Positions 35,883-39,146 of a stretch of DNA of 64,000 bases are shown here, one piece after another (the first letter of the stretch is position 1; the number at the start of each line of letters is the position of its first letter). The DNA is taken from assembly GCA_000722615.1 (NCBI GenBank), contig JOKI01000005.1, positions 1 to 64,000 of the forward strand, given 5' to 3'. A program made the translations under genes and the position numbers. This DNA comes from Pseudorhizobium pelagicum. Lineage in GTDB: Bacteria > Pseudomonadota > Alphaproteobacteria > Rhizobiales > Rhizobiaceae. The notes beneath the pieces were generated by a model. The model made no database searches. It saw nothing but the letters and a program-made list of their open reading frames with translations, and had not been told where the DNA came from.

Positions 35883-35955
35883 GGGCGCCGTCCGACGACG
35901 GCGCCCCAAATTTGCGCTCGTTCGCCGCCGTCTGGCGACGGCATCGCAATTTTCT
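35883..35955 (+). terminator. Tandem hairpins after the peptide permease genes
   Basis: First stem 35883-35892 with 35897-35906 (10 bp, CGAC loop, poor T-tract). Second stem 35927-35932 with 35937-35942, extended by outer TTGCG/CGCAA pairing, followed by TTTTCTT. Together they should end the importer transcript before the stress promoter at 35975. Confidence 0.7.
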
Positions 35956-35974: not shown

Positions 35975-35999
35975 GGAACGAAAAAACGATGACCTCGTT
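35975..35999 (+). promoter_or_regulatory. EcfG-type promoter GGAAC-N16-CGTT upstream of candidate sRNA
   Basis: Exact match to the alphaproteobacterial general-stress sigma consensus: GGAAC at 35975-35979, 16-nt spacer, CGTT at 35996-35999. The same -35/-10 words with the same spacing occur upstream of phyR 2.3 kb away. No protein gene lies downstream on this strand before the convergent kinase gene. Confidence 0.8.
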
Positions 36000-36005
36000 A
36001 TATCC

Positions 36006-36122
36006 ACGTCTGGAAGCACCCCCCCGTCCCCCGCCCTACTAAGCTTCCAGGCATTACTCTTCAGTCCCCCTCGAAGAGATGAGCTGGCCCGGTTTCGCAA
36101 GAAACCGGGCCAATTCAGTTTT
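36006..36122 (+). ncRNA. Candidate EcfG-dependent small RNA with C-rich loop (GsrN-like)
   Basis: Predicted transcript of about 115 nt starting some 6-8 nt after the EcfG -10 element. It contains a perfect 8-bp stem (36010-36017 with 36043-36050) closing a 25-nt loop made mostly of C (three runs of 7, 5 and 3 C), a short linker with another CCCCC (36066-36070), and a perfect 12-bp terminator stem (36085-36096 with 36101-36112) with a GCAA tetraloop and a T-rich tail. Caulobacter GsrN, a sigma-T-dependent stress sRNA, has a comparable size, promoter and exposed C-rich loop. C-rich loops pair with G-rich ribosome-binding regions. Expression and homology are inferred; ends are approximate. Confidence 0.7.
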
Positions 36123-36158: not shown

Positions 36159-37190
36159 CTATTGCCCGCCGGCATCCAGCGGAAACGCCAGATGGTAGGC
36201 GATGCGGTCGTGGGCGATCACATATTGCGCCTTGCCGTTGACGGAAGCCGGCACCACGCGTTCCAGAACCGTGCTCCCGAAATGAGCCTTCAGCTCGTCC
36301 GCGTCATCGACGGGTCTCAGCGCCCTCTGTAGCGGCTCATGCCACACCATCTCGACCGTGTCCTGCCCGTCCGTATGCTTGCGGACGCAGGAGACCTCGA
36401 CCGGCAGGCCATTGCGCAGCAGCGAGCCATGGCTGACCGCATTCACGATCAGTTCGTGCAGGGCAAGCCCGAGGTGCAGGGAGGCATTGGGGCTGAGCAG
36501 CAGGTTGTCGCCGCTCACCTTCACGAGCTCCCTGTTCTCCGGCAGATATTTCTGGGTCTGCTGCTGGACGAGTTCGAAGAAATAGGCGCCGCGCCAGCTG
36601 GAATCGGTGATCAGATCCTGGGACTGCGACAGCGAATAGAGCCGCCCCCGGAATTTGTGCAGGAAAAGATCGAGCGAGCCGGAATGGCGAGCCGTCTGGA
36701 GGGCAATGCTCTGGATGATCGCCAGCAGGTTCTTTGAACGATGGCTGACCTCGCGAAGCAGGGCACGCAAAAGACGCTCGCGATGCCGCTCCTCCGAACG
36801 ATCGACGATCGTCGTCACCAGATGGACCCCGCCATCTGCGCATTCGATCGCCTGGACGCGAAACTCGAAGAATTGCTCCGCTCCGACCATAACCTCGAGC
36901 TGACCCTTGCGCCCAGGCTCCGTCATGTCGGCCTTCAGCGCGGCAAGACGTGCGGCCACATCAGCGCCGAAGATGATCTCGTCGGAAGGAGCCTCCAGGT
37001 TGTCTTGAGCCCAGACGTCCGGAAGGTTCGTAACCAATAGGTACTGCTGTCGCGCATCCTGGATGATGATGCTGGCACCAAGATCGACCAGCGCCGGCAT
37101 AAGGAACTCACGCAACCTGCCATCGCTCTGACTAGCGTGCTGCCATGTCAGCGGATGCACCAATGTGTTCACTCCGTTCCGTTCGAGCAA
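36159..37190 (-). CDS. HWE-family soluble sensor histidine kinase with PAS-like domain
   Basis: 343 residues, no membrane segment. A PAS-like sensor occupies about 33-135 ('LGASIIIQDARQQYLLVTN', ending 'VDRSEERHRERLL'). The phospho-accepting H150 is in 'REVSHRSKNLLAIIQSIALQ', the HWE-family H-box; N250 lies in 'ALHELIVNAVSHG', and 'VEMVWHE' supplies the W-x-E motif. It ends with 'HFGSTVLERVVPASVNG'. HWE/HisKA2 kinases phosphorylate PhyR in general stress circuits, and phyR is the next gene upstream on this strand. The first codon at 37190 is TTG with no obvious Shine-Dalgarno; the true start is uncertain (an ATG at 37100 would still keep the PAS core). Confidence 0.87.
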   Translation of the reverse strand: MLERNGVNTLVHPLTWQHASQSDGRLREFLMPALVDLGASIIIQDARQQYLLVTNLPDVWAQDNLEAPSDEIIFGADVAARLAALKADMTEPGRKGQLEVMVGAEQFFEFRVQAIECADGGVHLVTTIVDRSEERHRERLLRALLREVSHRSKNLLAIIQSIALQTARHSGSLDLFLHKFRGRLYSLSQSQDLITDSSWRGAYFFELVQQQTQKYLPENRELVKVSGDNLLLSPNASLHLGLALHELIVNAVSHGSLLRNGLPVEVSCVRKHTDGQDTVEMVWHEPLQRALRPVDDADELKAHFGSTVLERVVPASVNGKAQYVIAHDRIAYHLAFPLDAGGQ

Positions 37191-37442: not shown

Positions 37443-38237
37443 TCAGGCCGCAGCCTTCACCGAGTCGTTGAAGAACAGCGCCTGGCTGATGAGAGCCTTC
37501 ACCATGTCCGGGTTGAAAGGCTTCGTGACGAGGAATGCGGGCTCCGGCCGCTCGCCGGTCAGCAGGCGCTCCGGGAATGCGGTAATGAAGATCACCGGCA
37601 CTGTGGAGGCCTTCAGGATCTCGTTGACGGCATCGATGCCCGAGCTGCCGTCGGCAAGCTGGATATCCGCAAGCACCATCTTGGGGCTGGTCGTCTGGAA
37701 CAGCTGTACGGCTTCCTTGTGGGTCCGCGCGATGCCCGTGACCCGGTGGCCGAGCTCCTGGACCATCTGCTCGATGTCGAGCGCGATCAGCGGTTCGTCT
37801 TCGATGATCATGATCTCTGTCGCCACCTGGCGGGAAATTTCCTTGGAGGCCTCATCCAGCAACTGCGTGGCCTTCTCGACGCTGACGTCTAGCACCTCGG
37901 CCGTTTCCTCGATCGTGAACCCCTCGACGGAGATCAGAAGGAAGGCATGGCGAGCCATGGACGGAAGGGACGAAAGATTGGCCGCCGCGCGCTGTTCCCA
38001 TGCGAAAGGGGAATCGATCGGACGGATCTCGATGGCGGTGGAACCAAAGATTGCAACGAAGAGTTTGTAGAGCGAGACACGGTCCTTGGACGTTTCAGGA
38101 AATATGGAAACATCCGCGATCAGTGCTTCCAGAACCGCAGCTACATAGGCATCTCCAGATGTCTGGGATCCGGTAACTGCTCGAGCATATCGACGCAAGT
38201 ATGGAAGGTGAGACGCAACGCGTGTGGTCAGTGACAT
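37443..38237 (-). CDS. phyR: PhyR, anti-anti-sigma response regulator
   Basis: 264 residues. Residues 1-135 form a sigma-like domain (sigma2/sigma4 mimic; 'FTIEETAEVLDVSVEKATQL' is the sigma4-like part) and 140-255 a receiver with acidic pocket E146-D147-E148 ('IMIIEDEPLIALD'), phospho-acceptor D191 ('MVLADIQLADGSSG'), T219 and K239 ('VTKPF'). When phosphorylated, PhyR binds NepR and frees EcfG. An exact EcfG promoter (38307-38283, minus strand) precedes it, giving positive feedback. The gene is divergent from nepR-ecfG. Confidence 0.97.
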   Translation of the reverse strand: MSLTTRVASHLPYLRRYARAVTGSQTSGDAYVAAVLEALIADVSIFPETSKDRVSLYKLFVAIFGSTAIEIRPIDSPFAWEQRAAANLSSLPSMARHAFLLISVEGFTIEETAEVLDVSVEKATQLLDEASKEISRQVATEIMIIEDEPLIALDIEQMVQELGHRVTGIARTHKEAVQLFQTTSPKMVLADIQLADGSSGIDAVNEILKASTVPVIFITAFPERLLTGERPEPAFLVTKPFNPDMVKALISQALFFNDSVKAAA

Positions 38238-38282
38238 TCAGTATTCTCCCCTGATGCCCGGCGGGCAAATTGACAGGTAGGG

Positions 38283-38307
38283 AACGTGGGGCTGGAAAAA
38301 AAGTTCC
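38283..38307 (-). promoter_or_regulatory. EcfG-type promoter of phyR
   Basis: On the minus strand GGAAC (38307-38303), 16-nt spacer beginning with seven T, CGTT (38286-38283), 46 bp before the phyR ATG. Exact match to the EcfG consensus. Confidence 0.85.
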
Positions 38308-38341: not shown

Positions 38342-38376
38342 CTGTCGTGATGAATTCGCAACAGGCTGCCCGCGTG

Positions 38377-38586
38377 ATGAGTGACGAAACCAGAAAAAAG
38401 CAGGACATGACCATCTCACATCATGAAATCAAACCCGGATCGATGCCGCCAAACGCCTCGATTTCCAGAAAGCTCCGCGAATTTTATGACGCGGTGCAAG
38501 AAGAAGGGATTCCTGACCGCTTCATGGACCTTCTCGAGAAGCTCGATGAAGCCGAACGCAGCAGCAATTCGGTGAAATCAAAATGA
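38377..38586 (+). CDS. nepR: NepR, anti-sigma factor of EcfG
   Basis: 69 residues from the ATG at 38377. The core 'ISRKLREFYDAVQEEGIPDR' followed by 'FMDLLEKLDEAE' is the two-helix NepR signature. NepR holds EcfG inactive until phosphorylated PhyR titrates it. In-frame start candidates are GTG 38347, ATG 38350, ATG 38377 and ATG 38407. 38377 is chosen because the promoter's -10 element ends at about 38341, which leaves almost no leader for the first two. The stop overlaps the ecfG ATG (ATGA), coupling anti-sigma and sigma synthesis. Confidence 0.93.
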   Translation: MSDETRKKQDMTISHHEIKPGSMPPNASISRKLREFYDAVQEEGIPDRFMDLLEKLDEAERSSNSVKSK

Positions 38587-39146
38587 CGATGACCGAGAAC
38601 GACGATCGCGGCTTCAAGCGCGACCTTCTCGCATCCTTGCCCAATCTTCGAGCCTTCGCAGTGTCCTTGACGGGGCGCCACGACAAGGCTGACGACCTCG
38701 TGCAGGACACCATCATGAAGGCCTGGGCCAATCAGACAAGCTTCACGGCCGGCACCAACATGCGGGCATGGCTGTTCACGATCCTTCGCAACGAGTTCTA
38801 CAGCCAGATGCGCAAACGCGGTCGCGAGGTTCAGGACACGGACGGACTGTTCAGCGAGCGCTTCTCGGTCCATCCCGAACAGTATGGGCGGCTCGACCTG
38901 CAGGACTTCCGCAAGGCCCTCGACAAGCTCCCCGACGACCAGCGCGAGGCGATTATCCTCGTCGGCGCAGCCGGATTTGCCTACGAGGAAGCGGCGACGA
39001 TCTGCGGCTGCGCAGTCGGCACCATCAAGAGCCGCGTCAGCCGCGCGCGCACGCGCCTTCAGGAGCTTCTCGGAGTTTCGGGAGAAGGCGACTACGGCCC
39101 GGATGCCGGCCATGCCGCCATCACGTCGCGGGCGTTCGGAAGCTAG
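38583..39146 (+). CDS. ecfG: EcfG, general stress ECF sigma factor (ECF15 type)
   Basis: 187 residues. Sigma2 spans about 15-75 ('GRHDKADDLVQDTIMKAW' and 'NMRAWLFTILRNEFYSQ'), sigma4 about 108-165 ('LDKLPDDQREAIILVGAAGF', 'YEEAATICGCAVGTIKSRVS'). No sigma1/3 domains. Directs RNA polymerase to GGAAC-N16/17-CGTT promoters, of which this window contains two exact copies. A short Gly/Asp-rich tail follows sigma4. It ends tail-to-tail with the stand-alone receiver gene, sharing stop-codon bases. Confidence 0.97.
   Translation: MTMTENDDRGFKRDLLASLPNLRAFAVSLTGRHDKADDLVQDTIMKAWANQTSFTAGTNMRAWLFTILRNEFYSQMRKRGREVQDTDGLFSERFSVHPEQYGRLDLQDFRKALDKLPDDQREAIILVGAAGFAYEEAATICGCAVGTIKSRVSRARTRLQELLGVSGEGDYGPDAGHAAITSRAFGS

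Follow-up and report, generated by a model that had tools for sequence, protein, structure and literature searches.

The general stress response (GSR) pathway runs from stress through phosphorylation of PhyR and release of EcfG from NepR to transcription. Several small RNAs (sRNAs) are known or predicted to depend on stress sigma factors of this kind. GsrN of Caulobacter crescentus is stress-sigma-dependent, about 100 nt long and exposes a 5′ C-rich loop with six C, and its pairing with the first bases of katG mRNA has been proved by compensatory mutations; BLASTn matches to GsrN are reported to be confined to Caulobacteraceae, and, on the basis of promoter and place, typically at the GSR locus, GsrN-like RNAs were predicted in 2018 in R. 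etli, S. meliloti, B. abortus and others, with a C-rich loop noted (PMC5869019). GsrN is also cleaved to a stable 5′ isoform, and its full-length form is stabilised by Hfq. In S. meliloti, RpoE2 motifs precede 23 small RNAs (PMC3616915).

The closest described RNA by position is ReC64 of Rhizobium etli, transcription of which depends on sigma-EcfG1 (PMC3892343). Its level rises after salt shock, although the study reporting this assigned it SigA/RpoH promoters, contrary to EcfG (PMC4167512); its reported length of 88 nt is shorter than the distance from promoter to terminator (PMC3892343), and a Northern blot shows it with an unexplained extra larger band (PMC2881028). The available excerpts of the open-access literature on ReC64 name no target. 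The RNAs of the alpha-r14/NfeR1 type combine three hairpins, variable stems and conserved C-rich, anti-Shine-Dalgarno-like loops with a CCUCCUCCC-type motif in every loop, NfeR1 being present in several copies (PMC3927594, PMC7143759).

A predicted EcfG-dependent unit in the stress locus

The window, by which we mean the whole 64-kb stretch of DNA analysed here, comes from a genome of 5.13 Mb and holds the predicted sRNA unit between an oligopeptide importer permease gene (OppC-type) and an HWE histidine kinase gene (36159–37190, minus strand; PF07536, E = 6.5e-23). Beyond the kinase gene lie phyR (37443–38237, minus strand; NF006623 PhyR family, 387.7 bits), nepR (38347–38586, plus strand; PF18557, E = 5.7e-16) and a gene for an EcfG-type sigma factor with Sigma70 regions 2 and 4 (38583–39146, plus strand), which adjoins nepR and phyR. 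The kinase gene is convergent with the sRNA, 36 nt separating the kinase stop from the last T of the sRNA tail, and it adjoins the unit in all 30 loci fetched for comparison, with an identity of 65–84% in the 29 besides the window’s own. The two hairpins that a previous reading of this DNA, made from the sequence only, had placed behind the importer gene are real: they were read in the sequence and folded at 35883–35906 and 35927–35942 (plus strand), the second being followed by T-rich sequence. In some relatives (L020, L021 and L031) a gene with its own GGAAC-N17-CGTT promoter lies between importer and sRNA; from its start, judged by eye, the protein in L031 is presumably a CsbD-type stress protein.

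The EcfG-type promoter claimed by the sequence-only reading, an exact GGAAC-N16-CGTT, can be read directly on the plus strand as a −35 element GGAAC at 35975–35979 and a −10 element CGTT at 35996–35999 with a 16-nt spacer, and it is kept exactly in 30/30 fetched loci despite identities of 42% in the spacer and 35% over the 40 bases preceding the promoter. From CGTT to the core of the first loop, the distance is 19–23 nt across these loci. The exact pattern occurs twice on the two strands of the window, at the sRNA site and before phyR, against a mean of 0.47 copies in shuffled windows; since 9/100 shuffles reach two copies, the motif alone is weak evidence. The copy before phyR lies on the minus strand at 38281–38307 and overlaps an imperfect plus-strand copy before nepR-ecfG, the two forming a back-to-back, nearly palindromic pair.

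Two C-rich loops and a terminator

The predicted sRNA of about 115 nt occupies 36005–36122 (plus strand), its start being placed at about 36004–36008 from promoter spacing, and the covariance model R1 matches 36005–36121 in the own genome. Its predicted fold has an energy of −50.2 kcal/mol compared with −26.7 kcal/mol for shuffles (z = −8.0; 0/200 shuffles as stable). Hairpin 1 (36008–36052, plus strand) contains the perfect 8-bp stem described before, CTGGAAGC (36010–36017) with GCTTCCAG (36043–36050), which lengthens to 10 pairs including one U-G and closes a C-rich loop of 25 nt (36018–36042). Within this loop lies the invariant core CCCCGTCCCCCGCCCT (36022–36037, plus strand), which we propose as a pairing region. 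Hairpin 2 (36057–36078, plus strand), absent from the earlier description, which had covered the other parts of the unit, joins the 6-bp arms CTCTTC (36057–36062) and GAAGAG (36073–36078) around the loop AGTCCCCCTC, which is also C-rich. The intrinsic terminator (36085–36122, plus strand) has the perfect 12-bp stem with GCAA loop that had been claimed for it (stem-loop 36085–36112), but its tail, AATTCAGTTTT, had been overstated as T-rich: it is moderately so, with a single run of four T. The terminator hairpin folds on the opposite strand too.

Rfam at gathering threshold gave no match in the 64 kb, and at E up to 10 four matches at chance level (mir-Ro6-3, ncS025, Caulobacter CC3664 with E = 4.7, and MIMT1_1). 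A hidden small protein was considered and rejected: at the first position tested a frame is present in 19/30 loci, but its reading shifts with loop length, 4/30 loci are without any frame of at least 8 codons, and there is no conserved reading frame.

Shapes and letters conserved in the genus

By blastn, 36/60 genomes match the unit, and these are all 36 genomes of the window’s genus (own included), with none of the 24 from other families of the order; the 30 fetched loci come from these 36. The covariance model R1 finds a match in 57/57 genus genomes. The alignment of the 30 loci (A2) has 28 distinct rows and its shuffle statistics ignore relatedness, with which proviso 15/31 pairs show both-side changes (6/10 in hairpin 1 and 9/15 helix pairs of the terminator), 98.3% of cells are paired and the covariation score is 0.321, each of these values being reached by 0/500 shuffles. 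Of five measures in all, four had an observed value that 0/500 shuffles reached, and one, further pair types, was no better than shuffles (371/500 as high). Shifted controls collapse.

Conservation is of two kinds. Mean identity over the 30 sequences is 0.75–0.77 in stem 1 and 0.74–0.75 in the terminator arms, compared with 1.0 in the loop core and in each arm of hairpin 2, and 0.94 in loop 2; what is conserved is thus the shape of stem 1 and of the terminator, but the actual sequence of the loops and of all of hairpin 2. Hairpin 2 shows no covariation in A2, its stem being invariant. This invariance goes beyond what pairing alone needs, and a protein-binding or processing site, or a longer pairing region, would account for it. 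That the CTCTTC/GAAGAG stem is constant in 30 sequences sets it apart from stem 1; in the R. etli-type RNA, hairpin 2 has a different sequence but is also almost constant.

Because the model matches throughout the genus, the promoter is exact in every fetched locus, stem 1 and the terminator covary and the loop core is invariant, we regard the observation as more than chance. The sequence-only reading had proposed a covariance search of related loci, where promoter and loop are indeed conserved, and comparison among loci likewise favours its view of a non-coding unit with its own terminator placed in the GSR locus.

Counterparts in Rhizobium and elsewhere in the family

For comparison with the window RNA we used a genome (G321) that we take to be R. 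etli CFN42, as its panC-panB genes are 100% identical to those of plasmid p42f and occupy the same coordinates. In this genome, locus L220 carries phyR (75%), the kinase (46%) and then, convergent with it, an exact EcfG promoter and three hairpins with C-rich stretches. We infer that this RNA is ReC64 from the published description of its place and promoter rather than from a printed ReC64 sequence. Like the window RNA, it occupies the gap that separates the PhyR-linked kinase gene from its neighbour, converges with the kinase, and has an exact GGAAC-N16-CGTT, three hairpins with C-rich unpaired stretches and a length of about 115–125 nt from promoter to terminator. It differs in that its stem 1 holds an inner hairpin and a shorter C-run, its hairpin-2 loop is GUCCCCUCCC and its terminator loop is C-rich, compared with GCAA here. 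An alignment of the two RNAs scores 60.5, only slightly above shuffles (48.9 ± 5.9, maximum 71.5, 200 shuffles), so the case for common origin rests on place, promoter and shape; on these grounds we treat the two as probable counterparts in place, promoter and design rather than as proven homologues. The suggestion that the unit is the rhizobial counterpart of GsrN gains from this comparison, its positional match being the published ReC64.

The ReC64-like RNA has a DNA match in 148/148 genomes of the genus Rhizobium, including that of R. etli, some only over about the last 50 bases, and its position next to the kinase was inspected in L053, L055 and L220. An alignment of 19 of 20 fetched Rhizobium loci (A3; L234 was left out because the promoter-plus-C-run pattern was unmatched there) shows covariation in stem 1 and the terminator, with both-side changes in 11/36 pairs and a nearly invariant hairpin 2; on the measure of further pair types, 97/500 shuffles were as high.

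Among 87 loci around the best kinase matches in other family members, 2 were dropped for want of a kinase match, and the remaining 85 were tested for an exact EcfG promoter (N16–17), convergent with the kinase and followed within 110 nt by at least two runs of at least four C. This pattern is present in 20/85 loci, compared with one on the opposite strand (L098, apparently the start of a protein gene) and none in 20 shuffles; with a looser promoter the numbers are 24 loci, 2 on the opposite strand and 0.25 in shuffles. The unit was not seen on the convergent strand of the other 65/85 loci, a test that may miss units because flipped ones exist in the window’s genus. phyR is within reach in 27/27 of the longer loci (L040–L066). 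By eye, the first hairpin of L044 and L045 has a CCCCGUCCCCGCC-like loop; the second has GCCCCUG and is followed by a terminator. A model search of 247 family genomes, in which only 14 candidates per genome were scored under strict filters and which therefore says little about absence, matched 5 genomes in 2/109 genera. The one matching genus other than the window’s own has a genome of 3.3 Mb (G199); there, a three-hairpin RNA whose loops are C-rich follows phyR directly (L035:1500–1620), with no adjacent kinase detected and no EcfG promoter visible at that locus.

katG and candidate targets

The target shown for GsrN is missing from the window’s genome: searches with TIGR00198 (E 0.001) and with R. 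etli KatG (1e-100) gave no match there. KatG was also not found in the near relatives G031, G009 and G029, and it is present in 20/26 genomes searched. The Caulobacter katG mechanism therefore cannot be the conserved function here, and on these genome searches katG is excluded as a target in this genome. Runs of at least four G occur in 5/20 katG leaders of the genomes that have the gene. A katG-type target, to which the likeness to GsrN had pointed, is accordingly not supported. The katG leader of R. etli holds a 7-nt complement, which is no better than shuffles by whole-duplex energy (142/300 as good).

Besides the self-site, perfect 11-nt complements of loop 1 number 2 in the own genome and 5 over six genomes. 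Of the two own sites, L248 falls where a reading frame ends, with the next start 157 nt further on, and L250 falls within reading frames; G009 and G029 share one site in similar surroundings, and none is common to all six genomes. The complement, GGGGGACGGGG, corresponds to part of the loop-1 core, and its 5 sites beyond the RNA gene compare with 55 for the reversed pattern over the six genomes, which makes it much the rarer of the two. This shortage could reflect codon usage or avoidance, and because codon usage may explain it we draw no inference from it.

A predicted trans-acting stress RNA and its proposed mode of action

A predicted EcfG-dependent sRNA of the stress locus is well supported by these comparisons and is not new in kind. 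We consider it likely that it is a trans-acting RNA transcribed by sigma-EcfG, the counterpart of ReC64, that would work in a GsrN-like manner through its C-rich loops. PhyR would free the sigma factor from NepR, and sigma-EcfG would then transcribe an RNA of about 115 nt that carries its own terminator and exposes the C-rich loops of hairpins 1 and 2. By analogy with GsrN, the loops would base-pair with several mRNAs at G-rich sites in their leaders or ribosome-binding sites, and this pairing would change translation or stability of the targets during stress. The stress-sigma (EcfG) promoter and exposed 5′ C-rich loop that the sequence-only reading had likened to those of GsrN are both present, by comparison and by fold. 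The RNAs differ in that katG, the shown target of GsrN, is absent here, and in that a single C-rich loop is described for GsrN in the available text of its report (PMC5869019), compared with two in the window RNA. The postulated pairing with G-rich mRNA sites is inferred from that analogy.

Repression at ribosome-binding sites is a serious option because the loops resemble the anti-Shine-Dalgarno loops of the alpha-r14 family. The C-rich loops might be modules of the alpha-r14/NfeR1 type that mainly block translation start, which would make the RNA a repressing arm of the response, a special case of the trans-acting reading with its sign fixed. The design of variable stems and conserved C-rich loops resembles that of these RNAs (PMC3927594, PMC7143759), NfeR1 copies have a parallel in the second copies described below, and the hairpin-2 loop of ReC64 is of the GUCCCCUCCC form noted above. 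Against this, the loops of the window RNA are without CCUCCUCCC, no Rfam family is reached at threshold and no alpha-r14 family at E up to 10, and the NfeR1 promoter is sigma-70 (PMC7143759). In the variability of stems the likeness is partial: stem 1 and the terminator vary and the loop core is invariant, but the stem of hairpin 2 is constant. We therefore hold this version possible, albeit somewhat doubtful, and retain a trans-acting RNA whose effect may take either sign as the preferred reading.

Inverted units and second copies

The unit is convergent with the kinase in 28/30 loci and flipped in the other two, L009 and L017, where it is co-oriented with the kinase and convergent with the importer permease; promoter, loops and terminator are intact there and have moved together. 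Such inversion fits an independent gene, as judged from its arrangement, and does not fit a kinase antisense element. A scan of named genomes with the hairpin-2 pattern returned 59 stretches. Of these, 51 are rhizobial, many with Neorhizobium names, and an exact EcfG promoter precedes 50/51, the last (L163) ending at a sequence edge; the other 8 come from other phyla or an unplaced bacterium and are without loop 1 and without the promoter.

Three named genomes have two copies (L138/L181, L139/L185 and L158/L169), and R1 gives second strong matches in G013, G033 and G449, of which G013 and G033 appear to be two of these same genomes. In the second copies of the named genomes (L138, L139 and L169), hairpin 2 and the loop-1 core are retained, the core lacking one C in L139, and each copy has its own exact EcfG promoter; their stem 1 is slightly altered, with one mismatch in L169 by eye, and their terminators are different. 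Those in L138 and L139 lie downstream of a gene for a DUF808 membrane protein (assigned by Pfam for the L139 protein), and kinase, phyR, nepR and ecfG gave no tblastn match in any of L138, L139 and L169. The inversion in 2/30 loci, together with retention of the loops in copies at other loci, favours action in trans over antisense.

These observations bear on the idea, raised by the sequence-only reading, that leaky termination makes the transcript antisense to the 3′ end of the kinase gene. As an explanation of the whole unit, this would be a cis-acting antisense or convergent-transcription element tuning the kinase gene, either by read-through from the EcfG promoter into the kinase 3′ end or by kinase read-through whose antisense product soaks up the sRNA. 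The convergent arrangement in the window and in most loci, the terminator hairpin that folds on the other strand and the weak T-tail are all consistent with it; but in L009 and L017 the unit runs with the kinase, which rules out an antisense role there, compensatory changes maintain the terminator, invariance sits in the loops and hairpin 2, and second copies stand where no kinase is detectable. The claim is thereby weakened, and we judge such a cis-acting element improbable. That there is no functional RNA at all, only an EcfG-like motif and a kinase-gene terminator that together resemble a gene, draws on a promoter motif near chance in the window and on a hairpin (36085–36112) that may also end kinase transcripts, but it can be set aside as very improbable given the conserved promoter, loops and covarying stems and the transcription of the R. 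etli counterpart (PMC2881028, PMC3892343).

Meaning for the rhizobial stress response

An RNA at the same place that depends on EcfG1, ReC64, was already known (PMC3892343), and GsrN-like RNAs in Rhizobiaceae were predicted in 2018 (PMC5869019); in the open-access literature on Neorhizobium small RNAs, no paper is by its title on the window RNA. As far as the literature was searched, what is new is a structure supported by covariation across the genus, a loop core and a second hairpin that do not vary, the finding of inverted units and of second copies, and the lack of katG. The comparison yields a precise candidate pairing region, made up of 16 loop bases and the second hairpin, all of them invariant; genomes in which katG is not found let the Caulobacter model be set aside, and natural inversions and second copies separate the loop from its context. 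The job of the stress sRNA in rhizobia is thereby directly testable, and in soil bacteria that are harmless.

More tentatively, the RNA may belong to a loop-defined, EcfG-driven class that extends through much of the Rhizobiaceae, in which stems and terminators turn over while two C-rich loops (here the whole of hairpin 2) stay fixed, survive inversion and are copied to new loci. Such a class would control, and probably repress, a broad set of G-rich ribosome-binding sites rather than activate katG, and it may have arisen independently of GsrN. If this is true, the alphaproteobacterial stress response would have a repressing RNA arm, as RpoS and RpoE have in enterobacteria.
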